Origin: Diospyros lotus
Taxonomy: Eukaryota > Streptophyta > Magnoliopsida > Ericales > Ebenaceae
Direction: 5' to 3'
Assembly: GCF_014633365.1 (NCBI RefSeq)
Contig: NC_068351.1
Coordinates: 11,104,907-11,168,906 of the forward strand
Length of the DNA stretch: 64,000 nucleotides
Every line of letters begins with the position of its first letter. Within the stretch, counting starts at the first letter, position 1. The position numbers and the translations under genes were made by a program. Below, piece after piece: positions 11,067-54,810 of this stretch. The notes under the pieces are model-generated. The model was not told the origin of the DNA and ran no database searches. It saw only the letters and a program-made list of their open reading frames with translations.

Positions 11067-11166
11067 NNNNNNNNNNNNNNNNNNNNNNNNNNNNNNNNNN
11101 NNNNNNNNNNNNNNNNNNNNNNNNNNNNNNNNNNNNNNNNNNNNNNNNNNNNNNNNNNNNNNNNNN
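11067..11166. other. Assembly gap, 100 N
   Basis: Exactly 100 N, the conventional placeholder for a scaffold gap of unknown size. The bases on either side belong to the same locus. Confidence 0.99.
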
Positions 11167-11205
11167 CTATTTTCAACTTCTGAGCCTGAGAAATGAATGG
11201 AACAG

Positions 11206-11357
11206 AGGAAGTAGAAAACACGGCCGCCTTCCTTGCGTCGCCACTGGCTTCTGCAATCACTGGCGCTATTGTATACGTGGACAACGGCCTGAATGCGATG
11301 GGAGTTGGAGTCGATAGCCCAGTATTTGCAGATCTCGACATTCCTAAAGACAACTAG
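11206..11357 (+). pseudogene. Duplicate of the last enoyl-ACP reductase exon
   Basis: Same 152-base exon as 8559-8710, ending in the same DIPKDN-stop. One substitution changes EEVGNT to EEVENT. No other reductase exon accompanies it, which is expected if it is the start of the second, overlapping contig. It is not an independent gene. Confidence 0.85.
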
Positions 11358-12881: not shown

Positions 12882-12889
12882 TATAAATA
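12882..12889 (+). promoter_or_regulatory. TATA box of the unknown gene (copy B)
   Basis: TATAAATA in GCACTATAAATACCC, 87 bases before the ATG at 12976, after a CTT-rich leader. Confidence 0.6.
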
Positions 12890-12975
12890 CCCATTGTTCC
12901 GGACAGGAATCCAAACACCCAATCCCCAATCACTTTCAAATCAAATCCATCGGATTATTGGTTTTCGGAGCGGGA

Positions 12976-15005: not shown

Positions 15006-17822
15006 TGTAAGCACCCCCGCCCGGATATCCCCAACCACCGGACTACCCGAACGGGAGCACCTACGGGAGGAGAAAAGTAATAAACACCAGACAAAGACCA
15101 CCCCGGCATGCATACACAAAAAAAAAAATAAGAACAGCGGAAGCAAAGCTCAAGACATGCATGCACTATGGGTACCCGCTAACACAGCGGTCACAAGATA
15201 AATAATAATAAATACAAACTCCTGTGCCGACATACACAAGACTCGAGAAAACACCTGGCACAGTACGAAATAATAGAGTAAATTCTACTTAGACATCAGA
15301 GTGGATAGGGATTGACGAGACTGCCTGTACACCACACCGACTCTGCCGTTAAAGCTGACTCCCTTGCCGTGGCTCACGCCGCCACTACCTGGAATGATGG
15401 AAAGCAAGGTGAGTCGAGAGACTCAGCAAGCACAAGGAAGAAAAGGCATAAGGCTACTCAAAACCAGAAATCTCACCCCAGAATAAACCCCCAGGTACAC
15501 ACAAGCCATGAGACACTACAACACAACAGCTCAATAGCATAACAAATAAAAGCACATATCGGTCCTTGGGGCCACACAAGACACACGGCACCCAAGTCCC
15601 ATACAAACCTGCCGCTGCCCTGAAAGGCAACAAATATCTGCAACAAACCTGCGCGCGCTGTCCCAGGCCGGTACTCCCGTCACCTGTATCCGTCGGTACT
15701 CCCGACAACCGAGCCATAGGCTCCCTCGGAACGGTACTCCCGTCCGAGAACTAAATACTATCAGTATCCATGCAATGCACATAGAAATGCAATGGCGTAG
15801 TGAGCATCAACGTGATACAAGGCGCCCATACATCCAGGCATCAGGCCATGCTCCGCCCACATAGTAAACCACACACGCCATGCATATGCCGCGCTGGATG
15901 CAACCTAACCAAGCTAGAATGTCCGTGTCCAAGCATACTCAATAAATGAATATCCCAACATGCATCCCATACCCATGTGCATACCAAATCATGAACAGTA
16001 ATACAATGCATCTACTCATACAATAAATCACATACCGGCAGAGTTACTCAGCAATGCTCGGCACCGGTCAACGGCCAGTGACTAGGGGTGTCCACCCGAC
16101 GGTCCACATCAGGGCCGTACCATAGTCTACCCCAACGTCACCAAACGGTTGACCCCTGCCCCACTGCTCAATAGCTCTAACCAAATCATAAATAAATCCG
16201 AGAAAAACTGTAAATAAAACCCGCACGACTAGGAACCTAGTTCCCTAACTGGGTTCAGCATCATTCCGAAAGGAATGGGGCGGTACAAACCCCCTTAGGC
16301 TCACAACGAATAAAATTATAGAAGCCTCAGATTTAATTTAAATTAAAACAAATGAATAATAGTTCAACCAATAAGGCAATGTGCCGAATTAAAGTAAGGG
16401 AGGTGATAAAATACAGGAAATCACGGGGTTTCTCACGGGAATTAAAGAATACGAGGAAAGGGATTGGAACTTGCCTGAAATTAGCTGATTCCGACCTCAC
16501 TCGAGCTCCGATGCAAATTAAATCATTTCCTAGCAAATAACACAATCGGGACTCAAATTAATTAATTTTAATCGCGTAAAATTTATAATTTAAACGTAAC
16601 ATGCTTCTACAAATTTTTACCCATGTACCTGATCACTTCCCTTGTCGAAAAATCCCAAAATTCCTTTATTTTTTTCTTTATTTTCTTCCTCTTCTTCTTC
16701 TTCTTCTTCTTCTTCTTCTTCTTCTTCTTCTTCTTCTTCTTCCCTGCTTCACCCGCGCCTGCAACTCCATTTCTTCTTCTCCTTTCCTTTCATTCTTCTT
16801 CTTTTCTTCTTCATTTTCCTCTTCTTCCTTTCTTCTTCTTCTTCTTCTTCCCCGCGCTGCTGCCTCCTTCTTCTCCTCCCACGCATCCGGCCGCCTGCAA
16901 CCACGCATGGCTGCGGCCGGCCTTCTCTGTCTGGCCCTCCGCTGGTCGCCGGGCCTGCCTCCGGCCATCACCGCGCGCCACCGCGCCGCCCCGACTGTCG
17001 CTGCTTCACGTCGCCATGGCCGCGACTTCTTCAAGCCGCGGCTGCTCCTCGTCGGCCATGGCAGCTTCCTAACCCATCAAGCTCACTGTTAGTTATATAT
17101 ATATTATCATAGCTTTACAAAACTAGCATATATATATATGCTCTTAAGTTTCTGCCGACTCCACTGCCTCAATCTCAATCCTCTTTAATAATATATTATG
17201 CTAACAATTAAATATTGATTCATATACTCATGTATATAGCATGCAATTGAAACCTTGGAGGCTAAGTCTCTATCCCATTTCACTCTCCCCAGACGTAATC
17301 ATGGCCTCCTGCCAATTTTTGCTTTCAATTGTCTTTTCTCCCTCATCTCTTCCCAGCCGTTTGATTTTCACCTACTAGGGACACGCACACACATGCATTA
17401 ATTGAGGTGGCAGCTCATGGAAATATCCTCATTTCCATTTCCCTTGATTTTTTCCACACACATAATATGTTTACTAAATTAATATAATAAGATATTAGCA
17501 TAATAGGTATAAACTTAAATTAATATTTGCTATTAACACAGTATATCATCACATATACGCACATTAGCCACTTCACTTCAAGATTCCTTCACTTGCCTTA
17601 TTTTATTATTATTATTTAAATTTATCCCATACAATATATTAATTATTATATTAATATCTTTATTTATTAACTAGTTCTAATAATTTAATTAAGTATCTTT
17701 AATCCCTTATTTTCTCAAAACTACCTAAATAAATATTTCCTCTTAAATTTTTGAATATTCATTAATGTCCTTAAACACTGATTTGAATAATTATTATTTA
17801 TTTTCAAATTTGGGATATTACA
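15006..17822 (-). repeat. 3' LTR of the Tekay-like element (left in the window)
   Basis: Starts TGTAAGCACCC and ends GGGATATTACA. It contains a long CTT microsatellite, then a GC-rich block of about 230 bp, then AT-rich DNA. It matches 20136-22949 throughout apart from short indels and microsatellite length. Confidence 0.92.
16690..16743. repeat. (CTT)n microsatellite in the left LTR
   Basis: About 17 CTT units. The shorter counterpart is at 21824-21863. It produces long spurious Ser/Phe/Leu-rich frames. Confidence 0.95.
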
Positions 17823-20135: not shown

Positions 20136-22949
20136 TGTAAGCACCCCCGCCCGGATATCCCCAACCACCCGGACTACCCGAACGGGAGCACCTACGGGAG
20201 GAGAAAAGTAATAAACACCAGACAAAGACCACCCCGGCATGCATACACAAAAAAAAAATAAGAACAGCGGAAGCAAAGCTCAAGACATGCATGCACTATG
20301 GGTACCCCGCTAACACAGCAGTCACAAGATAAATAAATAAATACAAACTCCTGTGCCGACATACACAAGACTCGAGAAAACACCTGGCACAGTACGAAAT
20401 AATAGAGTAAATTCTACTTAGACATCAGAGTGGATAGGGATTGACGAGACTGCCTGTACACCACACCGACTCTGCCGTTAAAGCTGACTCCCTTGCCGTG
20501 GCTCACGCCGCCACTACCTGGAATGATGGAAAGCAAGGTGAGTCGAGAGACTCAGCAAGCACAAGGAAGAAAAGGCATAAGGCTACTCAAAACCAGAAAT
20601 CTCACCCCAGAATAAACCCCCAGGTACACACAAGCCATGAGACACTACAACACAACAGCTCAATAGCATAACAAAATAAAAGCACATATCGGTCCTTGGG
20701 GCCCACACAAGACACACGGCACCCAAGTCCCATACCAACCTGCCGCTGCCCTGAAAGGCAACAAATATCTGCAACAAACCTGCGCGCGCTGTCCCAGGCC
20801 GGTACTCCCGTCACCTGTATCCGTCGGTACTCCCGACAACCGAGCCATAGGCTCCCTCGGAACGGTACTCCCGTCCGAGAACTAAATACTATCAGTATCC
20901 ATGCAATGCACATAGAAATGCAATGGCGTAGTGAGCATCAACGTGATACAAGGCGCCCATATATCCAGGCATCAGGCCATGCTCCGCCCACATAGTAAAC
21001 CACACGCCATGCATATGCCGCGCTGGATGCAACCTAACCAAGCTAGAATGTCCGTGTCCAAGCATACTCAATAAATGAATATCCCAACATGCATCCCATA
21101 CCCATGTGCATACCAAATCATGAACAGTAATACAATGCATCTACTCATACAATAAATCACATACCGGCAGAGTTACTCAGCAATGCTCGGCACCGGTCAA
21201 CGGCCAGTGACTAGGGGTGTCCACCCGACGGTCCACATCAGGGCCGTACCATAGTCTACCCCAACGTCACCAAACGGTTGACCCCTGCCCCACTGCTCAA
21301 TAGCTCTAACCAAATCATAAATAAATCCGAGAAAAACTGTAATAAAAACCGCACGACTAGGAACCTAGTTCCCTAACTGGGTTCAGCATCATTCCGAAAG
21401 GAATGGGGGCGGTACAAACCCCCTTAGGCTCACAACGAATAAAATTATAGAAGCCTCAGATTTAATTTAAATTAAAACAAATGAATAATAGTTCAACCAA
21501 TAAGGCAATGTGCCGAATTAAAGTAAGGGAGGTGATAAAATACAGGAAATCACGGGGTTTCTCACGGGAATTAAAGAATACGAGGAAAGGGATTGGAACT
21601 TGCCTGAAATTAGCTGATTCCGACCTCACTCGAGCTCCCGATGCAAATTAAATCATTTCCTAGCAAATAACACAATCGGGACTCAAATTAATTAATTTTA
21701 ATCGCGTAAAATTTATAATTTAAACGTAACATGCTTCGACAAATTTTTACCCATGTACTTGATCACTTCCCTTGTCGAAAAATCCCAAAATTCCTTTATT
21801 TTTTTCTTTATTTTCTTCCTCCTCTTCTTCTTCTTCTTCTTCTTCTTCTTCTTCTTCTTCTTCACCCGTGCCTGCAACTCCATTTCTTCTTCTCCTTTCC
21901 TTTCATTCTTCTTCTTTTCTTCTTCATTTTCCTCTTCTTCCTTTCTTCTTCTTCTTCTTCTTCCCCGCGCTGCTACCTCCTTCTTCTCCTCCCACGCATC
22001 CGGCCGCCTGCAACCACGCATGGCTGCGGCCGGCCTTCTCTGTCCGGCCCTCCGCTGGTCGCCGGGCCTGCCTCCGGCCATCACCGAGCGCCACCCGCGC
22101 CGCCCCGACTGCCGCTGCTTCACGTCGCCATGGCCGCGACTTCTTCAAGCCGCGGCTGCTCCTCGTCGGCCATGGCAGCTTCCTAACCCATCAAGCTCAC
22201 TGTTAGTTATATATATATATATATATATCATAGCTTTGCAAAACTAGCATATATATATATATATGCTCTTAAGTTTCTGCCGACTCCACTGCCTCAATCT
22301 CAATCCTCTTTAATAATATATTATGCTAACAATTAAATATTGATTCATATAGTCATGTATATAGCATGCAATTGAAACCTTGGAGGCTAAGTCTCTATCC
22401 CATTTCACTCTCCCCAGACGTAATCATGGCCTCCTGCCAATTTTTTGCTTTCAATTGTCTTTTCTCCCTCATCTCTTCCCAGCCGTTTGATTTTCACCTA
22501 CTAGGGACACGCACACACATGCATTAATTGAGGTGGCAGCTCATGGAAATATCCTCATTTCCATTTCCCTTGATTTTTTCCACACACATAATATGTTTAC
22601 TAAATTAATATAATAAGATATTAGCATAATAGGTATAAACTTAAATTAATATTTGCTATTAACACAGTATATCATCACATATACGCATAATTAGCCACTT
22701 CACTTCAAGATTCCTTCACTTGCCTTATTTTATTATTATTATTTAAATTTATCCCATACAATATATTAATTATTATATTAATATCTTTATTTATTAACTA
22801 GTTCTAATAATTTAATTAAGTATCTTTAATCCCTTATTTTCTCAAAACTACCTAAATAAATATTTCCTCTTAAATTTTTGAATATTCATTAATGTCCTTA
22901 AACACTGATTTGAATAATTATTATTTATTTTCAAATTTGGGATATTACA
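20136..22949 (-). repeat. 5' LTR of the Tekay-like element (right in the window)
   Basis: Second copy of the LTR described at 15006-17822, with the same TG...CA termini, a shorter CTT tract, and longer AT dinucleotide runs near 22207-22262. Confidence 0.92.
21824..21863. repeat. (CTT)n microsatellite in the right LTR
   Basis: Shorter counterpart of the tract at 16690-16743. Confidence 0.95.
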
Positions 22950-38752: not shown

Positions 38753-39402
38753 TGATAATGGTCAAGATTTCCTATATCCTAATGAATTATATCCCTCTTT
38801 TGGCTTTATATTTATGTTTAAAGTAAATAATTATTCGTATTACATATTATTTCAGCATGAAGCAAGGTAGTTGGCTTCTACAATTAATTAGGGGCATAAT
38901 CGAAAACATTGGATTACCCATTTTTTATTGCTCAAATTCAAAGGCCAATTATGGAGTCTAGAGGATGTTTCAAGTGCACTTGGCCCAACTATCAAATGGA
39001 GTCCAACCAAAGGCCCAAAACCAACCAAAGGCCCAACAAAAGCCCAACTTGTAGAAGACTTTTCGTTGTTTTGTATTTTTTTACAAGTGATTTACCACCT
39101 AAAGTCTTTTGTATTCTTATGAGTAGTCCACCACTTAAAGTCTTTGGTATTTTTTGTCTTTTACCTAATTTTCTTCCATTAGTTAGGTCAATGTTTTTTG
39201 AGTACCCATTAGATATAATTATGTTTAGTTGAATAATTATGTGGTTTGTATTGCATCTTGTGAGCTATAAATAGCTCACTTGGGTGCATTTGTGAAAAAT
39301 GTGGTTATTACTTGAATCAAATTTTAGTTTTGTTCTTAGAGTTTCTCTTAGAGAATTGCTCTTATTCTCTATCTTGTTTTCTCTCGTAATCTTACTTCCT
39401 TC

Positions 39403-39407
39403 ATTTC
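39403..39407. repeat. Target site duplication ATTTC, left
   Basis: ATTTC on both sides of the solo LTR (second copy 41102-41106). Confidence 0.85.
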
Positions 39408-41101
39408 TGATGTTCTACCCTTGTACTTAGTTTTGATGATGAAAAACATATGTTATTAAATCCCTAAGTCATGAATCAAGGTGGTGGTTTTCAACAAAAT
39501 CAATTTCAAGTGCATTGTTAAAATGAAAACCAAAAAGATTTATGATTTTCTATTTTAGTTAGAGATTTGCAAAGTCAAGTTTTTAGTCTTAAAAGAATCT
39601 CCTAAAATGATTTTCAAATTAGCTTTGAAGTCGTTGGTCAACATAGAGCTAAAATTGTTCTAAGGCAAAAGACCAACTAGAACATGTTTTTGAAAGTGTG
39701 TTCATTTTAGAAAGTGTTCATTTTAGAAAACTATCTCTTAGTATTTTGATATCTAATATCTCTTAGTAATGAAATGGTTTTGATGAATGTCTATATAAAA
39801 ATCAATTTCTATCATGTGGCTTATATGAATGAGAAAATGAATTTTTAGTATATAAGTTTTGAAGTAAGATATGAAAACTTATAGAAGAAATATTGAGTAT
39901 GGTTGAAAGTGTTTTGAAAAACTTTCTTGTTGAGTGTGATTTGTTTCAAATATATACTTTTGATAATCTCAACTTGTTTTAAAGATAATCAAAATGAGTT
40001 TTTAAAGAATCGAATAAGGTTGTTTTGAAAATTCAAGTTTTTCTAAAGAATAGTCGACTATCAGGATCATTCTGTCGGATCATTCTGTCGACTATGCTTC
40101 AAAATAGTCGACTATTTTTTATGTTCTGTCGACTATTTAAGCATCTGTCGACTATTTTAGCATCTGTCGACTATCGAGTAAAAATAGTCGACTATGCCTT
40201 CTGATCTGTCGACTATTTTTGTTCATAAGTTTCAAAAATTTCTTCATATCTCAGCATCTGTCGACTATTGGAATGTGTCTGTCGACTATTGAAATTTTGT
40301 GTTATAAAATAGTCGACTATTCGTTTTGTCTGTCGACTATTTCTTGCTTTAGTTGTAAAAATAGTCAACTATATATTTCTTCTGTCGACTATTTCTTTTT
40401 GCAGAAAGTTCCAACGGCTATTTTTTCAAATCCCAACGGCTCCAAACGGCTATATTTCTCTTCAACTTCGTGGGACACTTATATATACATGTCATAGATG
40501 ATCAAGAGAAGGCTAATGGATGGGAATGAATTGAATTGAGCTTACATTTTACACTCATTTCTATTTACATTCACTGTGCTTCAATTTTCTCTCTTCAAGG
40601 CTGTGATCTTAATTTGTTTACATTCATTTAAGCCTTGTATCATTTTTGAGAGACATTGTAACTAAGAGATTCATCTCTTAGATTCTCTCCAACTATATAT
40701 TTCTTGTTTTCCTAGCTTGTATAGCTAGAGAGCCCATTTGAGTGGGAGGTTTTGTAATTCCTAGTCTCGGACTAGAGGACCTACTTGGTTTAAGTAGGGG
40801 GTTTTAGTGGATGGTTTGAAAAATCCTTAGTGAGGAGCTAAGGTAGTGGATTAGGCTTGGGTTAAGCCGAACCACTATAAATCTTGGTGTTCTTGTGTGC
40901 TTGTGTTCTTTAAATCATCTTTATCTTTCCAAGCATTCCTTAATTCCTCACTTGATTCACATTTGTCATTTTATATGCTTCACGTTTTTTAATTATTAAA
41001 ACTTCAACCTGTATCAAAAAGTTTTCAAGTTTCTACCAAGTTTTTAATTATACCAATTCACCCCCCTCTTGGTATGTGCCATAGCATCTCCCGTTCTAAC
41101 A
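39408..41101 (+). mobile_element. Solo LTR of a Copia (SIRE/Maximus-like) element
   Basis: 1694 bp beginning TGATGTTCTACCC and ending CGTTCTAACA, with ATTTC target duplications and no internal coding region. The phrases TTTTGATGATGAAAAACATA near the start, CCAACGGCT repeats before a TATATATA promoter-like stretch, and CAATTCACCCCCCTCTTGG near the end are typical of SIRE/Maximus LTRs. It formed by LTR-LTR recombination within the Athila left LTR. Confidence 0.85.
40050..40395. repeat. Array of GTCGACTAT motifs within the solo LTR
   Basis: Thirteen exact GTCGACTAT and one GTCAACTAT variant, preceded alternately by CT or A (CTGTCGACTAT or AGTCGACTAT), at irregular spacing of about 10-45 bases. 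The AGTCGACT form is a perfect palindrome. Confidence 0.9.
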
Positions 41102-41106
41102 ATTTC
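41102..41106. repeat. Target site duplication ATTTC, right
   Basis: Second copy, directly after TTCTAACA. Confidence 0.85.
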
Positions 41107-42113
41107 TTCTTTTAAATTCTTATGTCATTTATTGTTTCTTTATTATCCACCGCCTAAATGGCTGGTTAATTTCTACCTTTAAATTTCTGCAATTTTAATT
41201 CTTGTCTTTTAATTATCCATCGCCTAAATCGTCGGTTAGTTTATGCTATTTTAATTCTTGTCATTTAAATTCTGTTATTTAAATTACGCCATTTAAATTC
41301 TTGTTAATTAACTTTTAAATGGAAATGAGTAGCTAAATCTAATCTTGGGTTAAGGCAAGGACAGTGTCCAACGCTAATGATTCCTAAAGAAAACTATGCT
41401 TTAAATGAGTAACATTAATTTAAATTTCAGTATGAGTGTGTTTTAATTATTGGAAAATCACTAGATTTGGATTTGGGTGTAAGCCTAACTTAGAGATTTC
41501 ATGTCACGCATGGGAGTTACTAGAACTGGAAACGCTATCATACCCAAATCCGGATGATTAATTTAGTTGTTTTGTATATTAATTGTAATTGAATTTATGG
41601 TAGTTGCTTAAATTAGAATCTCACATATCATGTATGGGGATTGCTTAAAATAGAACTATCATCATCTCTAATTGCATTTAGTAACAAACTCTCATATCTG
41701 AAATTAAATTAATGTTACTAACCTTATCTGCTAAAATTTGGGAATTAACGGGTTGGTGCTGGAATTGTCTTAACTCAAGTGCTATCCAATTTTATATCCT
41801 CACATTAAGCATTTATTTCAACTTATACCTTGCTTTATTTTCTAATATCTGTTATCTAAAAATTATAAAAAAATCTTGTTACCAATCCATCTAAATGCGT
41901 ATGCGTGTGTGATATTCTTTTTCTTTTGCCATAAATAAATCTCTCAGTGGACGACCTGGACTCATCCAAAAAGTATAAATTTAAATTTGGACTACAACTG
42001 CACTCGTACACTGACGAGTATAAACCTCTCACCTAAATAAAAAATATATATATAAATTTTTTATTGTGTTTTGTTTTGTGTTTTAATTGCAGGGTGAGAG
42101 TGCAGCCAAATTT

Positions 42114-42131
42114 TGGCGCCGTTGCCGGGGA
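42114..42131 (+). other. Primer-binding site, tRNA-Asp type
   Basis: TGGCGCCGTTGCCGGGGA, five bases after the LTR, complementary to the 3' end of plant aspartate tRNA, as is usual for Athila-branch elements. Confidence 0.88.
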
Positions 42132-42247
42132 GATTGAGGCAAAAACAAAAAGAATAAAAAATATAAGAATAAGCATCTCCTGATAAATTCGGTAACTCTG
42201 TTTCTTTTTTTTTTTCTTTTTACTTTATTTTTGTTTGTATATAGTGT

Positions 42248-44128
42248 ATGATACTTAGGTCAGGTAGAACTATAGAATATCAATCACTCATGTCTCAACA
42301 CAACGAGAACATGCATCTTGCACACAACATGTCTGCACGTGGTAGTGACCACGGTGACCCTAACTGCATTGATCAAAAGATGATCAGACCCCTTAAGGAG
42401 TATCTTTATCCTTCTAGGCAGACAATCCCTTCATGCATTATTTTTCCCATCAACCATCATAGGTTCAACTTCAAACCTGGCACAATCCAATTGTTGCCAA
42501 CTTTTCATGGTATGAATTCTGAAAATCCATATACTCATATGAAAGAATTTGAGAAAGTATGTAGCACTTGCATGGACCATACAACAAATGAGGATGTCAT
42601 AAGATTAAAATTCTTTCCATTTTCACTGAAAGATAAGGCAAAAATGTGGTTAGGCACTCTCCCACCTAGATCTATAGGAACTTGGAGAGAAATGCAAGCA
42701 ACTTTCTTAAAAAAATACTTCCATGCCAACAGAACTGCTACTCTTCAAAGACAAATCATGAATTTTTCCTGTAAACCAAATGAGAATTTTGCTCAAGCGT
42801 GGGAAAGGTTTAAAGACCTTCTTCACACTTGTCCGCACCATACTTTTGAGCAATGGAGAGTGGTCAGTTTCTTTTATGATTCACTCACTCCCTAATTGAA
42901 AATGCCAGTTTCTACAATGTGCAATGGAGAATTCTATGAGAAGACTCCAGAAGAAGCTTTTCACTTCTTTGACACATTGGCTGAGAATACAAGGAACTGA
43001 GAAGTTGGTCCAACATCTGCTCTTGATTCAAGAGAAAATTCACAACCTAGAGGGAGATACCAACTGAGTGAGTGACGATTTAAATGCAAGACTAACTGAT
43101 TTAACAAAGAAAGTTGAAAACATGCAACTCAAAAAGGTGCAATCCGTTAATCAAGTGGAAGTAAAGTGTGTTGTGTGTGATGCAACAGATCATTCAACTG
43201 AAGAATGTCCTACCCTACATGCTTTCAAGGAGGTATTATATAGGCAGACTAATAACAATCATTCACACAATTTTGAGGGGAGACAAAATCAAAATCAGAG
43301 TAGAGCCTATTATGGGAATAATCAGAACTACATTTCATATCATCCCAATAATAGAAATCACCCTAATTTTTCTTGAAGAAATGATTCTGGAAATCATTCT
43401 CAATCTCCTTTCCCTGTACAACAACACACTTTCCAATAGAATCAAGGTTCTTCATCCAATACTTACCAACCTCCTCATAGGAGATCTTTGGAAGATACCT
43501 TGCACCAGTTCATCCAAAGTCAAACAGGCATCAATAATCAAGTTGCCAAACTCAAGACCAAACTAACAAAGCCATGGAAGACATTAGGAGCCAGTTGACC
43601 AAGCTAATACAAACATTGAGTGTGAGAGAACCCGGAAGGTTTCCATCCCAAATTAATCCTAACCCAATTAGGCAAACCAACCAGGTAGAAACTTCAAATA
43701 GTGAAACCAACACTCATGAACAAGTGCAAGCGATGATTGCCCTAAGAAATGGAAGATTAATTAAAAAACCAACTGATCCTAGGATAAACCAACCTGCTGC
43801 TGAAGAGGAAGAACAAAAAGATCATGAATACACCATGGAAAAAAATGAAAAAAATGATAAAAATGAAAAACAAAAAGAAGATGGGAAAGAAATTCAATAT
43901 AGGCCCAAACCATCTTTTCCACAAAGGTTGAGTCATTTGAAAAAAGAGCAACAAAATGCAGATATATATGAAGTGTTTAAGCAAGTGAGAATCAACATCC
44001 CATTGTTGGATGCAATCAAACAAACACCTTCATATGCAAAATTTTTGAAAGATCTGTGCATTGTCAAAAGAAGAACAAATGTGTATGAAAAGGCTTTCCT
44101 GACTGAACAAGTCAGTGCCATTCTCTAA
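42248..44128 (+). pseudogene. Athila gag remnant
   Basis: The ATG at 42248 (MILRSGRTIEYQ) opens a frame with the Athila capsid region (ENPYTHMKEFEKVC, LRFFPFSLKDKAKMWL-like, FSCKPNENFAQAWERFKDLL). It is interrupted after FYDSLTP at 42893-42895, resumes with MCNGEFYEKTPEEAF, and contains a nucleocapsid-like CVVCDATDHSTEECPT at about 43167-43215. Further frame changes lie near 43376-43574. The last segment ends with a TAA where Gln is expected (SAIL-stop-LKTPPKY), directly before protease. Confidence 0.88.
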
Positions 44129-44890
44129 TTGAAAACTCCTCCCAAATATAAGGACCCAGGCTGTCCAACCATTACATGCATCATAGGAAGTCAAAAGGTT
44201 GATCGGGCACTCTTGGATTTAGGAGCTAATGTCAATTTGTTGCCATACAGTGTGTATCAACAATTGGGATTATGTGAACTCAAACCCACTAGAGTGACCT
44301 TTCAGCTGGCTGATCGATCAGTCAAAGTTCCACGAGGAATTGTGGAGGATGTTCTGGTACAAATCGATAAGTTCTACTTTCCTATAGACTTTATTGTTTT
44401 GGACTCCCAGCCGCATCAGGGGCCTCAACCTTCTGTTCCAGTCATCTTAGGTCGACCATTCCTTGCCACATCAAATGCCATCATCAACTGTAGGAATGGT
44501 GTGTTAAAGCTATCTTTTGGGAACATAACTGTAGAAATGAATATCTTCAGGGTAGCCAAACATCAGGACACTGAGAGTGAAGTGGATGAGGTAGACTTGA
44601 TCCAAACACTTACCGATGATTATTTTGAAGAGGTCAAGAGAAGACCCAAAGAAGGAAATCAAGATCTTGAGGAAATAAGAGAAGTGGAAGTCATAGGCAA
44701 AGAAGGTGAGAAGCCTACATGGATGCTTAGTTTAGAGTCATTAAGGAACTTGGACAGTAAGCTCACAGCTTCTGATAGCCATCAGTCCACACCTGAGAGA
44801 AAGTCGTTGCCTAGTGATTTGAAGTATGTCTTTCTAGGAGAAGGGGAAGCATTCACAGTGGTGATCTGTTCTAGTTTGACACCTCAGTAA
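44129..44890 (+). pseudogene. Athila aspartic protease region
   Basis: Contains ALLDLGANVNLLPYSVYQQ, the retropepsin active-site region in its Athila form (DLGA in place of DTGA), then VPVILGRPFLATSNAII, the usual second protease motif. It ends in a stop before reverse transcriptase, so the polyprotein is broken. Confidence 0.9.
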
Positions 44891-46291
44891 GAGCAACAAC
44901 TGATAGAAGTTCTAAAAACACACAGGAAGTCATTAGGATGGACCATTTCAGATTTGCAAGGTATTATCCCTTTGATCTGTACTCATAAGATATTCTTGGA
45001 AGAAAGAGCAAAACCAGTTAGGCAAATGCAAAGGAGATTAAATCCTAATATGAAAGAAGTTGTCAGAAAAGAAGTCCTTAAGCTATTGGATGCTGGAATA
45101 ATTTACCCAATCTTTGATTCTAAGTGGGTAAGTCCAACACAGGTAGTACCAAAAAAGTCTGGAGTCACTGTTGTAAAAAATGAGAACAATGAACTGATTC
45201 CCACGCGCATCCAGACATGATGACGTATGTGCATTGATTATAGAAAGCTCAATTCTGTGACAAGAAAAGATCATTTTCCTTTACCTGTCTTGGATTAAGT
45301 TCTGGAGAGAATAACAGGCCAAGTCTACTATTGTTTCTTAGATGGGTACTCAGGGTACAATCAGATATAAATTGTATTAGAAGATCAAGAGAAGACTACT
45401 TTCACATGTCCATTTGGGACATTTGCATACATGCGTATGCCATTTGGGTTATGCAATGCTCCAGCCACCTTTCAAAGGTGTATGATGAGCATTTTTAGTG
45501 AAATGGTTGAGCAGATTGTTGAAGTATTCATGGACGACTTTTCTGTTTATGGAAGTAACTTTGAGGCATGTTTGGAGAATTTGAAAAAGGTTTTAGCAAG
45601 ATGTGAGAAAACAAATCTGATACTCAACTGGAAAAAGTGTCACTTCATGGTGAAACAGGGCATAGTCTTGTGGCACATTGTTTCATCTAGGGGGATGGAG
45701 GTAGACAGGTCAAAAATTGAAACCATTCAAAAACTCCCCACCCCTAGGAATGTGAAAGACGTTAGAAGTTTTTTAGGACATGCAGGGTTTTATAGGAGAT
45801 TCATTGCTTCATTTAGCACCATAACAAGGCCCTTGTGCCATTTGTTGTCTCAGGATGTTCCGTTTGAATGGACTCCTACCTGTCAAAATGCTTTTGATAA
45901 ATTGAAAGATGCACTCATTTCAGCACCTATCATTCAGTCCCCTGATTGGTCCCTCCCATTTGAACTTATGTGCGATGCTAGTGATTACGCTGTAGGAGCT
46001 GTGTTAGGGCAGATGAAGGATAAGAAACCTCATGTGATATACTATGCTAGCAAAACTCTTAATGAGGCGTAAAAGAATTATACAAGTACAGAGAAAGAGT
46101 TACTAACAATTGTCTTTACCCTAGACAAGTTCCGATCTTACCTCGTAGGGTCACTAGTGATCATTTTTACTAATCACGCTGTTCTGAAGTATCTGTTCAC
46201 AAAGCAAGATGCAAAACCCCATCTCCTTTGATAGATCTTACTCCTACAAGAATTCAACATTGAAATCAGAGACAAGAAGGGAGTAGAGAAT
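44891..46291 (+). pseudogene. Athila reverse transcriptase and RNase H
   Basis: Fingers and palm motifs occur in order: KEVLKLLDAGIIYPI, WVSPTQVVPKKSG, YRKLNSVTRKDHFPLP, CPFGTFAYMRMPFGLCNAP, then the catalytic FMDDFSVYG (about 45527-45553). FLGHAGFYRRFI is followed by RNase H motifs MCDASDYAVGAVLG and TEKELLTIVFTLDKF. Stops occur near 45218-45225, 45296 (Gln expected), 45368, 46070-46072 (Gln expected) and 46231. Confidence 0.92.
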
Positions 46292-47672
46292 GTGGTGGCT
46301 GATCATTTGTCAAGGATTCCAGGTCAAGATCTCACACAATTTGATGAACCAATCCATGACAATTTCCCTGATGAGCAACTGTTTGAAGTGAATGGTATTC
46401 ATGTATTATCTGTTGTCCCTTGGTATGCCGACATTGCGAACTACCTGGCAACTGGTCTGATCCCAGACCATTGGAGTAAGCTAGATAGGCATAAATTCTT
46501 AAGAAAAGTCAGAACCTTCTTTTGGGATGAGCCCTACCTCTTCAAGTATTGTCCTGACCAAATCATCCGTAGATGCATACCCGATCATGAGCAACAAAGT
46601 GTCATTAATTTCTGTCATACTCTTGCATGTGGAGGCCATTTTTCTGTCAAGAAAACAGTTGCAAAAATTTTTCAGAGTGGATTTTATTGGCTGACACTGT
46701 TCAAGGATGTGTACAAGTTCTGTTCAAGTTGCGATCGATGTCAAAGGTTAAGAAGCCTGTCAAGGAGAAACATGATGCCATTACATCTGATCCAAGTGTT
46801 AGAAGTTTTTGACTGTTGGGGTATGGATTTTATGGGCCCATTTGTCAATTCATTTGGTCGAAGTAATCCCAGCTAGAACAAATGACCATAGGACTGTTGT
46901 GAAATTTTTGAAAGAAAACATATTCAGTCGATTTGGGATGCCACAAGCAATCATCGATGATGGGGGTTCTCATTTTTGTAATAAAGTTGTGGCAGGATTA
47001 ATGAAGAAATATGGTGTATTGCATAAGGTTGCAACACCATACCATCCCCAAACTAATGGTCAAGTCGAGCTAGCCAATAGGGAGATTAAGCGCATATTGA
47101 AAAAGACTGTTGCTGCTAATCATAAGGATTGGTCCTTAAGACTAGTAGACGCTCTTTGGGCATACAGGACAACTTACAAAACAATTTTAGGAATGTCTCC
47201 CTATAGGCTAGTATACGGTAAATCTTGTCATCTGTCGGTGGAAATTGAGCATAGAGCATATTGGGTAATTCAAAAGATCAACAAGAGTCTAATTGAAGCA
47301 GGCCTATTTAGGAAGCTCCAATTGAATGAGCTTGAGGAAATTCGGAATGAGGCATTTGAAAATGCACGATTAGCTAAGGTTCGCATGAAAGAGTTACATG
47401 ATCGGCATTTCATACGAAAAAGCTTTCAGGTAGGGCAATAGGTACTCTTGTATGATTCTCGATTGCATCTGTTTCTAGGAAAATTGAAGTCTCGATGGGT
47501 CGGTCCCTTTGTAATCAAGTCCATCTCAGAATATGGGGCCTTTGAGATAGAAAATCTGGAGTCAGGACAGCTTCTTACAGTCAATGGTCATAGGTTGAAA
47601 CCATACCAAGGTAATGTTGAGGAGAATGAAGGTGTTGTGAATTTGGATGATCCACCATCATCTGATGAGTAA
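46292..47672 (+). pseudogene. Athila integrase with internal deletion
   Basis: The His/Cys zinc-binding region is present (GGHFSVKKTVAKIFQ, CSSCDRCQR). The catalytic core follows (WGMDFMGPF, DDGGSHFCN, PYHPQTNGQVELANREI), with D, D and E visible. Around 46855-46865 the roughly 15 residues normally between FG and VEVIPARTNDH are missing and the frame shifts. The C-terminal part runs through a stop at 47439-47441 to LKSRWVGPFVI and NGHRLKPY, ending at the TAA 47670-47672. Confidence 0.9.
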
Positions 47673-48480
47673 GGGACGTTTCATGTCGTATGGGAATCTG
47701 ACGTTAAAAGACCACATTTCCATTTAGGTTAAATGAAAGTTTCTAGATTTGAAAAAAAAAAAGAGTATATAAAATATATATATATATAAATTGTTTCTTT
47801 TGTGCATTACTTAAATAATGTTTCTTTATGTGCAGTTTAAATAAAATTTTTGCATACGAGTTCATGCACTGAAGACTGCCAGGTATGCCTATCTTCTATC
47901 ATTTTATTGCCGATTGAGGACAATGCGCAATTCAAGTTGGGGGGTAAGGTGTACTTAAGAATTGATTTATTGGTGTTTGAAATTGATCCATTGTGCAAAT
48001 AATTTTGTTTGACTCGATAATATTGTCTTGTGTGGTATATATATAATTTTATTAGGCCTCTAAAAAAAAAACCCTAAAAAAAGAAAAATAATAAAGAAAA
48101 AACAAAAACCAAAAAAAAAAATTGAATTGAGAGAGACAGAATTAGCACTGGTGGTAGCTATTTTTCTCGGGCAGTGCAATCACACTGTGCTATAAAGGAA
48201 GAGGCACACTGCCAAATGTTGAAAAATGAGGCAGCGAGCGTTGAAAAAAGAGAAGCGCCAGACCCTACAATTATGGCGTGCCTCGAGTCGAGTGTAGAAT
48301 AGTGATACCCATTGCTCTATAAGAGACTCCATATGTGTATGAGGTAAGCCACACTTCTGCAAGCAAGCTCAGTCTCCTTTCTTTCGTGTTGTTCTCCGAT
48401 CAGGTACTCTCGTTCATTTTACAAGATTCATAGTTTTTAGTTTTATTTTATTATAGTTGTGTTTTAATAAAAAAAAAAAA
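47673..48480 (+). other. Athila post-pol spacer with first polypurine-like copy
   Basis: No conserved frame. TTCAAGTTGGGGGGTAAGG at about 47931-47949 resembles the true polypurine tract at 51588-51603. A TATAAAG at 48191-48197 lies about 290 bases before the next frame; whether it acts as a promoter is unknown. Confidence 0.5.
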
Positions 48481-48958
48481 TGGATCTTCAACTCTCAAAA
48501 ATTCGCAAGTACTATCCATCTCTCCCAATGAAGATATTCGCTGGTTGATCGAAGCAAAAGTTCGATTACTAGGCGAAACTTCACCTAGTTTTAAGCACTT
48601 TCCAGGTTTGGAAAAGAGTAGTTTTGCGAAAAAACGATGAGCGAAAAGAGTGAATGGTTGTCACAAATGTCCTCGTTGAACCTGTAACACACGATGCAAA
48701 TCTGTGAGGTTTACGTCCGTAAATCGAGAAGATAAAATTAGTTTCATAAAGGATGGGCTGAGTAAGGAGTCTTTGGATGATATCCGATTGACTCTTGAGA
48801 CGCATCCATGTGGAATAGTGCAAAGAGAACTTTTTGCTTTATGGACCCAGTTTATAAGTGACTACCAACGCTATAGTCTTGGGAATCTGACTAAAAACAA
48901 CCCTGTTTGCCAATCTTTAAGAAAATTGGATGGGAAGCTTATCCCCACTTCATAGAAG
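48481..48958 (+). pseudogene. Unidentified degenerate reading frame upstream of the LOG-like frame
   Basis: Starting at an ATG (48480-48482) is MDLQLSKIRKYYPSL. After a one-base shift it continues NEDIRWLIEAKVRLLGETS and PSFKHFPGLEKSSFAKKR, and after further breaks FIKDGLSKESLDDIRL, ETHPCGIVQRELFALW and VCQSLRKLDGKLIPT, ending at the TAG 48953-48955. The residues look like genuine eroded protein sequence rather than chance: hydrophobic/charged periodicity persists across the shifts. I do not recognise the family. It lies in the same orientation as pol and immediately upstream of the LOG-like frame, so it may have been part of the same accessory gene, of an env-like region, or of captured host sequence. 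Confidence 0.45.
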
Positions 48959-49132
48959 GTGTTTAAGCCGTTTCTAGACGTAAAACCAGAGGAAGATGTG
49001 AGCCACAATTACAACTATTTGTATATATGCATGATTTTTGTTTGTGTCTATTTCTTGTTGAATTTTTGTATAACTACTTTTGATCACCACACCTCTTTTT
49101 TTTTTCAGGGCCTACATAAGGAACAAACATAA

Positions 49133-49792
49133 ATGGAAGGTCAGTTAGTTCATCGAATCAATACCATATGCGTACTATGTGGCTCTCAACTAGGGAGCGA
49201 CAGTAGTTACGCACTTGCAGCAAACGAACTAGGCCTAAAATTGGGAGAAAGAAAAATTAATTTGATATATGGAGGGGGAAGTCGTGGATTGAATGGTTGT
49301 GTTTCATAAGCTGCACATCTTGGAAAAGCATATGTGGTAGGTGTAATGCCAATCCCTTTGGCTGAACCACGTATTTTCGAGATTACACGCGGTCAACTTA
49401 TAGAAACGACTTCTATGTCCGAGCGCATGGCTTATAAGATTTATCAGTCAGACGCTTTCATCGCTTTACCAGGAGGTTTTGGTACACTTGAAGAAATTTT
49501 CTATATAATCTCCTGGGTTAAGAGCAATCTCTATACCAAACCCATTGGACTTTTAAATGTTAATCATTTTTTTGATGGGTTGCTCTATTTTCTTGATCAG
49601 GTTGTGGAATAAAAGTTCATTTCTCTTTCAGCAAGAAAGATTCTCATTTCTACATCTACCATTGAGGAGCTGCTAGAAAAATTACACGCTTATGTTCCAC
49701 AGCACGATCCTTATGAGCCTAGGATAGATTGGTCTAAGGTAATCAGGAACAAGCGCCAAAAAGGTTCGATTAATTTAGATTTATCTCTGTAA
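49133..49792 (+). pseudogene. LOG-family (cytokinin riboside 5'-monophosphate phosphoribohydrolase-like) frame inside the Athila element
   Basis: One continuous 220-codon frame from the ATG at 49133 to the TAA at 49790-49792, the usual length of LOG proteins, with only two in-frame stops (codon 59 at 49307-49309, codon 160 at 49610-49612). It matches LOG from end to end: TICVLCGSQLGSD, INLIYGGGSRGLNG, YVVGVMPIPLAE, an Arg at codon 98 in MSERMAYK, the hallmark PGGFGTLEE at codons 113-121, KPIGLLNV, and a C-terminal SARKILIS...EELLEKL. LOG enzymes release free cytokinin base from its nucleotide. Host LOG genes are normally split by several introns; this one has none. The stop at codon 59 replaces the usual Gln of VSQA (CAA to TAA). 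It lies between pol and the 3' LTR in the pol orientation, with TTTTTTTTTCAG ending 24 bases before the ATG. Its residues are quite divergent from typical plant LOG. Confidence 0.87.
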
Positions 49793-49795
49793 GGC

Positions 49796-50025
49796 AAGTC
49801 TATGATAAGATGACTGAGCAATGAGTACTTTTTGTACTCTTGAGATGCATCTTCTATGACTTGTACAAAATTTCTTTTCTTGTGTTCTTAAAAAAAAAAA
49901 AAAACTGTGGAATGTTGTTAGACGAGTCTATGATAAAATGGCTGAGTAAGGAGTATTTTTTGTACTCTTGAGACGTATTTTGTTTATCTTATGACTTGCA
50001 TGAAATTTTTATTTTGGTGTGAAAA
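49796..50025 (+). repeat. Tandem duplication just downstream of the LOG-like frame
   Basis: Two units of about 110-125 bp share AGTCTATGATAA, ATGACTGAGCAA/ATGGCTGAGTAA, GTACTCTTGAGA and TATGACTTG. Unit one starts at the LOG stop, unit two near 49917. Confidence 0.75.
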
Positions 50026-51587
50026 TATAAAAATATATATATATACATATGGTATGCTCATTTGTTTGTTTGAGTTTTAACAGTTCACAAAAAATCTATA
50101 GACTTGTGAAGTTACAGGTATTCCTAACAACCCTAATTTATTACTACAATTCAAGTTGGGGGGTGTAAGGTCTAGTTATGAATTATCTGATTCATATTTA
50201 ACTGTGAGTTTGCTATTACTAGCTTGTAGTCTTGTGTGAATTGATTATCCTTATCTGCTCTTATAAAAAAAAATAAAAAAATAAAAAAATAAAAAAATTT
50301 GTGTTTTAAATAACGTTATTCCTAAAGCTTTGGAGTTATGCATTGATAGTTGGTTAAGTCTGCAATACGAAATATGAATGCATTGATTTCTTATTTGAAA
50401 ACGTATATGCATCGGAACAAGTAATTTGCATTCATCAAGTATTCAAAATTTAAAAAAAAAAAAAAAATTGGTTATCGGTCATAAAGTCAAAGGTGATAGT
50501 AATTAGCTGATTAGTACACTGTATGATCCCTAAACAGAAGTGGAGACTATTTTTCAAGTGAGTGTTTGAGCCTAATAACTGTTAATTCCGAGTGAAATAA
50601 CACTTACTCTAAATATGCTTTATTGTTTATCTCATCTTTTCAATGGTTTCAAAACATCAATTCGCCTTGAATGTCTAGTATAATAGCGGATGAATTTGAC
50701 TAGTTTCAAATTTCAAATTAGATGACTGAGTAACATTGTTTTGTAGAAGCATGATAGGGGGATCAATTTCTTTTATTTTGGGCCTATTAACCTTTTTTCT
50801 TTATTTACATTAATCTCCCTTGTTAGCCCATGTGAGCCATTTGTAGTACAATTTCTTTCATTATCCTCGTTTAACCCATAATCATATGAATTTTATCCAA
50901 CCTGGTGTAATTTTGGGAATTAGTATGTCTAGCTATTTTCATATTAAAAAAAAAAAGAGAAAAAAAAAAATTTCTCTTAGCTATTCAGCACAATTGTTTC
51001 AAAAAAAAAAAAAAAAAAAAATCCCAGCACACCATTTGCATACTCTATCATTTTCTTTGACAACCTGTATTAACCTTATAACCCCATTATAACCGGGTCT
51101 GATCCCTTTTGATGCTATAAATTATGTGATCTCAGAATTCGAGTTCGGAGTAGGGAATTATGTTTAAATTCAGAAGTTATTTATCTAGGGCATTATTCCA
51201 GTCATGAAGCTATGTCAATTTCCCCGTTCTTTCATGAAAATACGTTCCTTGTATTTGGGATGACTCCGAGTTTTGAACTTGTTTTACATTTATTCTTATA
51301 ACGGTGCACCCCCTTGTGTGTACACCTGAGGAATCGTTTTATTGGAGGGAAAATCCACAGTAAGGTTTAAAGTCAAAATTTTAAGGGAGTAAATCTGTGT
51401 ATTGGTCATCCTGATTGCCATTCCTGAGATTGTATGACCTTTAACCAGAAATCTAATTTTGAATATTCGACTGTATGCCAAACTACTCTACGCATTTTGG
51501 TTTCGAATTTAAAATTTTTATATTCATGCTAGTATTGCGATTAGATCATGGCTGGTGTATAATCTAATTGCTAAGGGACTAGCAATA
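50026..51587 (+). other. Athila post-pol spacer with second polypurine-like copy
   Basis: No conserved frame; several A-runs. TTCAAGTTGGGGGGTG at 50150-50165, followed by TAAGGT, is the second copy of the purine tract motif and has nearly the same surroundings as the copy at 47931. Confidence 0.6.
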
Positions 51588-51603
51588 TTCAAGTTGGGGG
51601 GTG
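51588..51603 (+). other. Polypurine tract of the Athila element
   Basis: TTCAAGTTGGGGGGTG directly before the 3' LTR start TGATAAGG. Confidence 0.88.
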
Positions 51604-53252
51604 TGATAAGGGTCAATATTTCCTATATCCTAATGAATTATATCCTTATTTTGGATTTATATTTATGCTTAAAGTAAATAATTATTCGCATTACATATTA
51701 TTTCAGGATGAAGCAAGGTAGTTGGCTTCTACAATTAATTAGGGGCATAATCGAAGACATTGGATTACCCATTTTTATTGCTCAAATTAAAAGGCCAATT
51801 ATAGAGTCTAGAGGATATTTCAAGTGCACTTGGCCCAACTATTAAATGGAGTCCAACCAAAGGCCCAACAAAAGCCCAACTTGTAGAAGACTTTTCTTTG
51901 TTTTGTATTTTTTTTATAAGTGATTTACCACCTAAAGTTTTTTGTATTCTTATGAGTAGTCCACCACCTAAAGTCTTTGGTATTTTTTGTCTTTTACCTA
52001 ATTTTCTTCCATTAGTTAGGTGAATGTTTTGTGAGTGCCCATTAGATATAATTATGTTTAGTTGAATAATTGTGTGGTTTGTATTGCATCTTGTGAGCTA
52101 TAAATAGCTCACTTGGGTGCATTTTTAAAGAAAGTGGTTATTACTTGAATCAAAGTTTAGTTTTGTTCTTAGAGTTTCTCTTAGAGAATTGTTCTTATTC
52201 TCTCTCTTGTTTTCTCTCGTAATCTTACTTCCTTCCTTTTTTCTTTTAAATTCTTATGTCATTTATTGTTACTTTATTATCCACCGCCTAAATAGCCGGT
52301 TAATTTATGTCTTTAAATTTCTGCAATTTTAATTCTTGTCTCTTAATTATCTACCGCCTAAATAGGCGGTTAGTTTATGCTATCTTAATTCTTGTCATTT
52401 AAATTCTGTTATTTAAATTATGTCATTTAAATTCTTGTTAATTAACTTTTAAATGGAAATGAGTAGCTAAACTTAATCTTGGGTTAAGGCAAGGACAGTG
52501 TTCAACGCTAATGATTCCTAAAGAAAATTGCGTTTTAAATGAGTAACATTAATTTAAATTTCAGTATGAGTGTGTTTTAATTATTGAAAAATCACTAGAT
52601 TTGGATTGGAACGTAAGCTTAACTTAGAGCTTTCATGTCACGCATGGGAGTTACTAGAATTGGAAACGCTATCATACCTAAATTCGGATGATTAATTTAG
52701 TTGTTTTGTATATTAATTGTAATTGGATTTATGGTAGTTGCTTAAATTAGAATATCACATATCATGTATGAGGATTGCTTAAACTAGAACTATCATCATC
52801 TCTAATTGCATTTAGTAACAAACTCTCATACCTGAAATTAAATTAATGTTACTAACCTTATCTGCTAAAATTTGGGAATTAACGGGTTGGTGCTGGAATT
52901 GTTTTAACTCAAGTGCTATCCAATTTTATATCCTCACATTAAACATTTATTTCAACTTCTACCTTACTTTATTTTCTAGTATCTGTTATCTAAAAATTAT
53001 AAAAAAATCTTGTTACCAATCCATCTAAATGCGTGTGCGTGTGTGACATTTTTTTTCTTTTGCCATAAATAAATCTCTCAGTAGACGACCTGGACTCATC
53101 CATAAAGTATAAATTTAAATTTGGACTACAACTGCACTCGTATACTGACGAGTATAAACCTCTCACGTAAATAAAATATATATATATATATATATATAAA
53201 TTTTTTATTGTGTTTTGTTTTGTATTTTAATTGCAGGGTGAGAGTGCAGCCA
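51604..53252 (+). repeat. 3' LTR of the Athila element
   Basis: 1649 bp, TGATAAGGGTCAAT to GAGTGCAGCCA. Uninterrupted counterpart of 38753-42108, with moderate point divergence, indicating an old insertion. Confidence 0.92.
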
Positions 53253-53257
53253 CTAAG
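53253..53257. repeat. Target site duplication CTAAG, right
   Basis: Matches 38748-38752. Confidence 0.9.
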
Positions 53258-54290
53258 CCACAAAATGAACGCCTGTTTAGGAGGCATAACAGAATTCTAA
53301 ACATCCCCAACCCATATTTTATTAATCCCTTTTGGACAGACGTGATTATAGGCACTCGACATTCTGATATAATCCCATTGATTCCAACTTTTGATTAACT
53401 GAATAGCAGCAGCAACCGAACCCTCTGAATGGGACAAAAAATCCATGATTGCAAATATATATTTTTTTCAATAGAGGAGAATCATCTTTTTTAAATGATC
53501 TCTCCCAAATCGAAGTATTCCTAAGGTAAACATGATTAACCCATCTGACACCAGATGAAGTCCTTCTTACTATGAAATTTCCATAACACTTTGGCCAGCA
53601 GAGCTGAGTTCCAGCATCTCAAATCCTTAAAGCCCAAGCCTCTTTCTTTCTTAAGGCAGACATCCTTCCAAGCTGCTAGAGAATGAGGGGGGTTCCAAAG
53701 AAACTGCTTACACAATTGAGTAATCTTGTCGATGACAGTGACTAGAATAGGTAAAATAGTGAACCAAAAACACTCTACCCCCTTAGAGAATACTCTTGAT
53801 CAGCTTAGCCCTACTTACATAGGACAGCGTCACACAATTCCAAACTTTAATATAACCAACAATTTTATCAATCAGAGGTGAATAATAGTTAACTTTGAGC
53901 TTTATAGCTGCAATCGGGATGCCAAGATACCGAAATGGCATTTGACCATTCAAAAACTTAGATAAATTCTAAATGGCCTCAAGGTCATGGTCTTTAATAC
54001 CAACACAATACATATTAGACTTGAAACATCAAATCATCCGCAAAAGCAAGGAGAGTAATTCGAAGGCTACCATAGCGAGGATGAAAATTAAACTCTAAGT
54101 TGTTAGTCGCAATCTTTAGCAATCTGGAGAAGTATTCCATACACAATACAAACAGAAACGCGGACAGGGGATCCCCTTGCGTTAAACCCTTATTCCCTTT
54201 AAAGAACCCACATAGGTTGCCATTGATTAAAAGAGAGAATGAAGTAGTTGAGACGCGCTCCATCCCCTTCCTTTCATCTGTGATTGGGTA
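53258..54290 (-). mobile_element. LINE (L1 type), reverse transcriptase part, 5'-truncated
   Basis: The minus strand encodes VSTTSFSLLINGNLCGFF, GLTQGDPLSAFLFVLCMEY and the catalytic FADDL (FADD at 54033-54044). Downstream come GIPIAAIKLKVNYYSPLI and LKKERGLGFKDLRCWNSALL, leading towards the zinc-finger domain that resumes left of the Athila element at 38747. Frame breaks are numerous. The 5' end is lost at about 54290, just upstream of the MERVST segment, so endonuclease and ORF1 are absent. Confidence 0.87.
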
Positions 54291-54303
54291 GTTATTATCA
54301 TAT

Positions 54304-54810
54304 TTAATAACTCAGGAAAGAATACTCAATCTTTTTCATATAAAAATAAGTAATAAAAGAGGAAAAATAATCCAGTAACAATTGTAGGACAAGATCAGTT
54401 TGAAATTGAGTGTTCGTTAGGAATTCCAAGACATCCAGTTGACTAATCGTATTGATCATACTGATGGCATGGTTTCTGACATCTGAGCCCTTAAGCATTT
54501 GGGCCCAAAATAGCTTATTCAATATCTCATATCAAGCTATCCGACTATGCTCGCCAAAGAAGTCCTTAAGATGTATCATGATCACATCACTCAGGAAGTG
54601 CTCAAATTGACGCTATAAATCGTTGGACATCGATGTGAGAATACAGATACAGGCCCTCATGTCATGTTTTTTCAAAATCTTCCAAGTGATAATCTCATCC
54701 TTAGTCGCAGTTAAAAGAATTTCAATAGGTTCTATATAAGACAAAGTGTCATTTATTTTTTCCATATTGAGCACTATTTTTAGACTTCGAAACCAATCAG
54801 AAAAATTAGG
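54304..54810 (-). pseudogene. Copia gag fragment (UBN2-like)
   Basis: The minus strand gives FSDWFRSLKIVLNMEKI, LKDFFGEHSRIA, KLFWAQMLKGSDVRNHAIS, MINTISQLDVLEF and a Tyr/Lys-rich YMKKIEYSF, the usual order of Copia Gag. Several stops interrupt it. Confidence 0.78.

Follow-up and report, generated by a model that had tools for sequence, protein, structure and literature searches.

The window analysed here, a stretch of 64,000 nucleotides from Diospyros lotus, contains an Athila-type retrotransposon of 14,500 bp, and this element encloses a frame of the LOG family, to which the plant LOG phosphoribohydrolases of cytokinin nucleotides belong. We consider LOG to be a conserved accessory gene of this Athila-type lineage (probability about 0.9), and the frame in the window to be probably, with clearly less certainty, a dead copy of that gene. 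What carries this was seen directly: the frame and its place in the element, the order integrase, zinc finger, LOG, a separate LOG clade, and a conserved catalytic motif and C-terminal tail. The frame and its parts are as follows.

49133..49792, plus strand: frame of the LOG family, interrupted at codons 59 and 160, from translation, profile and structure matches
49424..49426, plus strand: codon of Arg98, conserved in at least 90% of a 21-row alignment
49469..49495, plus strand: PGGFGTLEE motif
49751..49789, plus strand: C-terminal tail with KRQK (49751-49762) and LDLSL (49775-49789) at the protein end, EAR-like

The frame comprises 219 codons and a terminal stop, is free of frameshifts, and is interrupted by TAA at codon 59 (49307) and codon 160 (49610). 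Both positions hold Gln in P0001, the closest intact relative. A preliminary description of this DNA had reported the frame with exactly these limits and its two stops, the landmarks YGGGSRGLNG, R98 and PGGFGTLEE, and the location in pol orientation between integrase and 3' long terminal repeat (LTR), and all of this held in the translation and in the element. The LTR pair lies at 38753-42108 and 51604-53252, and the element is flanked on both sides by the target site duplication (TSD) CTAAG. The middle open piece of the frame matched PF03641 (E 2e-25, 89.9 bits, cut-off 27), while the two shorter end pieces gave no match. With X placed at the stops, the frame matched the Arabidopsis LOG structures 2a33 (E 2.5e-50) and 1ydh (E 1.8e-42), and the likeness is therefore not a chance resemblance. 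The preliminary description did not include the tail, nor a broken zinc-finger open reading frame (ORF) found upstream of LOG at about 48480-48955.

Homologues and gene order

LOG homologues were searched for among 5.8 billion proteins; 7566 matches were obtained from 8000 scored candidates, and the best 120 of them were listed. These 120 included P0001, a stop-free protein of 219 aa from D. lotus itself (82% identical), P0002 from JGI (81%) and other relatives from JGI and ENA. Some of them stood for sizeable 90%-identity clusters, with 327 members (Pterospermum representative), 328 (Orobanche), and 81 and 52 (JGI). Citrus and Populus were both among the search results. Public annotation gives P0001 and P0028, which are LOGs of the transposable element (TE) type, the names of host cytokinin genes, and such names can mislead gene-family studies.

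Models joining LOG to parts of a retrotransposon were collected in a search with a filler-lengthened query, which gave 80 matches of 485-1489 aa. Together with three Xanthoceras models they made up a set of 83, and this set was compared by BLAST with the window's own domains. LOG occurred with another element part in 19 of the 83 models and with integrase in 17, the latter originating from Citrus (11), Primulina (5) and one Metaclust entry. LOG followed integrase in 14 of these 17, and a zinc-finger region lay between the two in 11, which is the same order as in the window. The integrase of the window was collinear with the Citrus and Primulina models. In two Xanthoceras models some 45 residues of Athila gag-pol linker stood between LOG segments. 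Long maintenance of a LOG-like gene in the element, as proposed in the preliminary description, is thus suggested by relatives in other plants. The first outcome named there as refuting it, that no other copy would carry LOG, did not occur: gene models of other plants have LOG after a similar integrase.

A LOG-family domain in plant Ty3/gypsy elements is already known. The accessible text of PMC9289625, citing Steinbauerova et al. (2011), describes Ty3/gypsy consensuses with a YgdH/LOG domain from Citrus sinensis and C. clementina and, once a filter was switched off, from poplar. The earlier statement that such genes are not a recognised part of Athila elements is not supported on this account. 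That extra ORF agrees with ours in being a LOG-family domain within Ty3/gypsy, with Citrus and poplar in common, but the accessible text mentions no basic and LxLxL tail, no viral-type zinc finger and no clade. The same text describes Phalaenopsis Ty3/gypsy elements carrying ALKBH, which are likewise plant LTR retrotransposons with an added enzyme domain; they differ in that the enzyme is an RNA demethylase, the hosts are orchids, and activity was shown in vitro (PMC9289625). As far as the accessible parts of PMC6317226 and PMC7264820 go, extra ORFs of plant LTR retrotransposons mostly lack any known domain, and what they do is an open question.

Phylogeny and enzyme signature

For a tree of 92 rows, eight matches of odd length or fragmentary nature were removed from the 120, and the remaining 112 were thinned to 67, to which the window, 21 host LOGs and three PDB fragments were added. 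A Taxus LOG served as query for the control host LOGs; those with a name were mostly LOG1/LOG3-like. In this tree 59 TE-type rows, the window included, formed one group with a support of 99 in the Shimodaira-Hasegawa-like approximate likelihood ratio test (SH-aLRT). A second tree of 52 rows added fern, alga, fungus, Thecamonas and bacteria. Here 30 TE-type rows grouped together (97/93), while the sampled LOGs of seed plants and ferns formed a group of their own (83/92), and the window LOG was nearest to the TE-type LOGs; the long branches of Thecamonas and the fungus stood beside the TE group, their placement being unsure. TE-type LOGs are apart from the sampled host LOGs, and a closer, unsampled class of host LOG may exist. 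The named sources of the TE clade presumably span several eudicot orders. Because of these trees we regard any capture as old and as lying outside the sampled plant LOG genes. The intronless frame fits the earlier suggestion that the capture proceeded from spliced RNA.

The signature PGGxGTxE was kept in 55 of the 59 clade rows. P0001 scored 146.6 with TIGR00730 (cut-off 96.35); the equivalog NF058542, with a cut-off of 300, was missed by P0001 (90.5) as well as by a Vitis host LOG (131.9). TE-type LOGs share the LOG profile, YGGG, R98 and PGGxGTxxE with the plant LOG phosphoribohydrolases AtLOG3 (2a33) and AtLOG8 (1ydh), and host LOGs were 43-48% identical to P0001 or to the window frame. They differ from host LOGs in the residue after the catalytic Arg, which is mostly I or M and not K, and in their added tail, their own clade and their carriage by a mobile element.

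C-terminal tail

TE-type proteins end with a basic cluster followed by LxLxL at the C-terminus; in the window protein this tail reads NKRQKGSINLDLSL. LxLxL or LxLxLxL was present in the tail of 84 of the 120 listed matches, a set which also includes host LOGs and truncated models. Within the 59-row clade, 44 rows had such an end, four a hydrophobic variant, and 11 were tail-less. None of 117 control host LOGs had LxLxL within the last 14 residues, and three had it elsewhere. Entropy over the 59 rows was low in the Leu columns (0.39, 0.14 and 0.67) and high in the x columns (2.19 and 2.16) and in the linker before the basic cluster (2.05-3.27), and such a contrast is the pattern expected of a short motif under selection. 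In the P0001 model 156 of 219 residues had a predicted local distance difference test (pLDDT) value of at least 90, while the tail, residues 207-219, stayed below 50. EAR motifs read LxLxL or DLNxxP; TOPLESS co-repressors are recruited by the former. The window frame ends in LDLSL, in agreement with LxLxL, and the tail looks disordered in the P0001 model.

Zinc-finger neighbour

Between integrase and LOG the window has a further ORF.

48480..48955, plus strand: zinc-finger ORF akin to the plant-virus CRP/NABP proteins, with two in-frame stops and an apparent frame change near its start

The pieces of this ORF gave no Pfam family at E<=1. Its relationships came from two relatives. Firstly, the piece at 48680-48952 was 65% identical over 77 aa (E 6e-30) to Citrus P0248, where the region has the same position. 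Secondly, an alignment of the zinc-finger region, used to scan contigs of prokaryote genomes, gave 37 stretches, of which one, L009 (DAIEQH010000041.1), was confirmed. This contig of 3330 bp, from a metagenome-assembled genome titled Candidatus Nomurabacteria, has a similar integrase and an intact zinc-finger protein of 182 aa, and is likely plant contamination of that assembly. The zinc-finger DNA of the window was 75% identical to L009 over 520 nt. The L009 ORF matched Viral_NABP PF05515 (E 3.3e-8, 34.2 bits, cut-off 23), and with Carla_C4 PF01623 it scored 19.8 at full length, against 24.0 for a sub-piece (cut-off 20.9). PF01623 was above cut-off also in P0269 and P0309. The corresponding scan of viral contigs gave 62 candidate stretches, none confirmed; a PDB search with the L009 protein had no match at E<=1, and an Rfam scan of L009 had none either.

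For two zinc-finger pieces compared with L009, dN/dS was 0.16 (34 codons, proportion of differing synonymous sites, pS, 0.66) and 0.48 (91 codons, pS 0.395), which roughly suggests purifying selection. On the integrase side synonymous sites were saturated (pS 0.79 and 0.84) and gave no ratio. Like the CRP/NABP of carlaviruses, allexiviruses and mandariviruses (PF01623, PF05515), the element protein has a C4-type zinc finger preceded by a basic stretch; unlike these it resides in a retrotransposon and has an extra conserved C-terminal part (NREDKIxFIKDGL...). According to the accessible text of PMC12172455, viral members are silencing suppressors and pathogenicity factors, and one is a transcription factor causing hyperplasia. 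In the literature searched, which omitted most subscription papers, no report was found of the C-terminal tail of the TE-type LOG or of its viral-type zinc-finger companion.

Proposed role and alternative explanations

The lineage would carry a zinc-finger gene of the NABP/CRP kind and then LOG with its basic and LxLxL end, downstream of integrase. The 3' part of the element would give rise to transcripts of both genes, perhaps spliced, and both products would act on the host cell, not on replication itself. The LOG protein would retain cytokinin-nucleotide phosphoribohydrolase activity in most lineages, which we favour because the catalytic motif is kept in 55 of 59 rows. It would also go to the nucleus, its tail recruiting TOPLESS-type co-repressors; a nuclear, co-repressor-linked role is favoured because of that tail. 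Jointly with the zinc-finger protein, LOG would then push the cell towards proliferation and weaken its silencing of the element. Judged from sequence, working cytokinin activation has about an even chance, and the odds for a working EAR tail appear equally balanced. The whole picture is a cassette of two genes for host manipulation, a zinc finger of a silencing-suppressor family and a nuclear, EAR-tailed LOG, carried through much of eudicot history and driving proliferating, permissive cells via hormone activation and gene repression, which would favour heritable transposition. This we offer as a tentative and rather doubtful proposal. The extra gene belongs to a known enzyme family with a testable catalytic motif and a short linear motif, and neighbours a member of a plant-virus protein family; with two proteins at hand, the question whether plant retrotransposons manipulate the host cell becomes directly testable.

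Several observations weigh against this reading of LOG and its neighbour. The copy in the window is broken, and just one LOG-bearing element was read as DNA, all other associations being predicted gene models, possibly of fused neighbours. Indeed, LOG came before integrase in 3 of the 17 models, as expected from annotation fusing neighbouring elements, and in P0308, a model of this kind, the integrase match was only 28% identical. PGGxGT was found in none of 16 Citrus models examined, some of which were spliced by annotation and may be distorted, and 10 of the 16 had GDLATLEA instead; cytokinin activation is therefore not universal. Five of the 11 tail-less clade rows end short of the tail; another four, including one from Primulina, make up a clade. 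With PF01623, three proteins (P0272, P0276 and P0310) scored too low for the cut-off, and P0300 showed no match in the scan. The 980 nt that come after the zinc-finger stop of L009 are free of LOG, so not all relatives have LOG at this position.

The same observations bear on two alternatives, both of which we find unlikely. LOG may be an inert passenger, an old captured gene carried along without function, and the broken window copy, the Citrus models without PGGxGT, the tail loss in one small clade and the L009 zinc finger without adjoining LOG would all agree with that; the accessible text of PMC6317226 asks whether such extra ORFs function at all. However, the catalytic and LxLxL positions are conserved in a diverged clade in which linker and x positions vary, and full-length open frames come from many sources. 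The other alternative takes the LOG core as a dead scaffold, with selection on the tail alone for nuclear entry and co-repressor recruitment. Six of the 16 Citrus models lacking PGGxGT nevertheless end in LxLxL, and three of these (P0250, P0276 and P0306) have GDLATLEA, so that tail and catalytic motif are separable. A dead core is at odds with the retention of PGGxGTxE by 55 of the 59 clade rows and of R98 by at least 90% of the 21 aligned rows, and the Citrus copies may share a single loss.

It is very improbable that the element family acquired its LOG recently and privately, as a copy of a spliced host mRNA. Plant LOG genes have several exons, and the intronless frame in pol orientation would suit such an event, but Citrus and Primulina models have LOG after a similar integrase, and the clade stands apart from the host LOGs sampled, with the window LOG nearest to those of the TE type. 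Hardly credible at all is an independent retropseudogene inserted in a dead Athila copy, an outcome foreseen in the preliminary description, since the A15 run starting 98 nt past the LOG stop codon lies in a 3' region where A runs are common, and the gene order is common to other plants; the search for repeats in the window covered lengths of 30 nt and above.

Structure and state of the element

The remaining parts of the element are listed from 5' to 3'.

38753..42108, plus strand: 5' LTR, from alignment to the 3' LTR, TSD CTAAG immediately upstream
about 39407-41105: nested insertion, about 1.7 kb long, within the 5' LTR, from alignment of the LTRs
42114..42131, plus strand: primer binding site TGGCGCCGTTGCCGGGGA, just inside the 5' LTR
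42245..42895, plus strand: gag (PF03732, E 2.6e-20)
44129..44890, plus strand: protease (PF13650, E 8e-7)
45371..46072, plus strand: reverse transcriptase and RNase H within a stop-broken pol (PF00078, E 4.6e-18; PF17919, E 1e-21)
46235..47672, plus strand: integrase with one frame change and one internal stop at 47439 (PF17921, E 2e-13; PF00665, E 7e-8)
47931..47945, plus strand: polypurine-tract-like TTCAAGTTGGGGGGT, copy 1 of 3, exact match
50150..50164, plus strand: TTCAAGTTGGGGGGT, copy 2, exact match
51588..51602, plus strand: TTCAAGTTGGGGGGT, copy 3, exact match, adjoining the 3' LTR, which is the functional position
51604..53252, plus strand: 3' LTR, followed by TSD CTAAG (53253-53257)

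Outside the nested insertion the LTRs differed at 80 of 1638 aligned sites (Kimura two-parameter distance 0.051). The insertion itself has repeated units resembling GTCGACTATTT. The order gag, protease, reverse transcriptase, RNase H, integrase between LTRs, together with a 5-bp TSD, is present and fits other Ty3/gypsy lineages too. The primer binding site TGGCGCCGTTGCCGGGGA we take to be of the tRNA-Asp type. The label Athila (Ty3/gypsy, OTA non-chromovirus) is based on this presumed primer binding site type and on structure. An additional RNase H domain is a feature of Tat, unlike Athila (PMC6317226, accessible text); none was found by Pfam in the ten pieces scanned, the frames of which are broken.

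The damage to gag and pol reported earlier was evident: over 42245-47672, about 1,800 codons, there were three frame changes, 13 stops away from these and another three stops next to them. The accompanying idea that LOG stayed under selection longer than pol was rejected on stop density, which is not lower in LOG (2 in 219 codons) than in gag-pol (13 in about 1,800, plus the three frame changes).

The identical copies of TTCAAGTTGGGGGGT (47931, 50150 and 51588) flank the block of zinc finger and LOG, and only the third adjoins an LTR; they may be marks of 3' blocks joined by recombination. In L009 a stretch resembling the first site sits after the zinc finger (92% over 38 nt to 47913-47950). 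The block could have been added through recombination between elements.

Two further features lie between the zinc finger and LOG.

48956..49039, plus strand: conserved stretch past the zinc-finger stop, from 30-nt bins against L009
49021..49108, plus strand: candidate intron with donor GTATAT (or GTGAGC at 48998) and acceptor TTTTTTTTTTCAG ending at 49108, from sequence inspection

From the end of the zinc-finger ORF through past its stop (48860-49039) the window was 80-97% identical to L009 in 30-nt bins. The DNA after the stop (48950-49039 in the window, 2344-2430 in L009) was closer to L009 than coding synonymous sites were. RNA folding of the conserved stretch was not convincing (z 0.45 in the window, z -1.68 in L009). 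The candidate acceptor is a polypyrimidine-CAG upstream of the LOG start. LOG may be read from spliced RNA, like env, since a candidate GT donor and this acceptor precede its start; counting against a sharp exon edge, similarity to L009 drops only past about 49070, beyond the donor.

Further observations

Viral contigs were also scanned with the TE-type LOG alignment and with the primer binding site pattern, and the candidates were discarded. The first scan gave four loci with matches of 35-45% identity. The second gave four loci, of which L006 had only a short integrase-like match (34-42%) and none had a LOG match. A 75-nt repeat, 80% identical, occupies 49788-49862, from the LOG stop codon, and 49916-49990, 128 nt downstream. 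Beyond the element, open frames at 53536-54311 on the minus strand resemble, by eye, remnants of a non-LTR retrotransposon reverse transcriptase. Two similar TTC-rich stretches at 16572-17112 and 21702-22247, about 5 kb apart, are perhaps LTRs of another element. Near-duplicate gene-like frames at 10129-11317 and 12724-14105 stand beside an N run, and represent either a tandem duplication or an assembly artefact.
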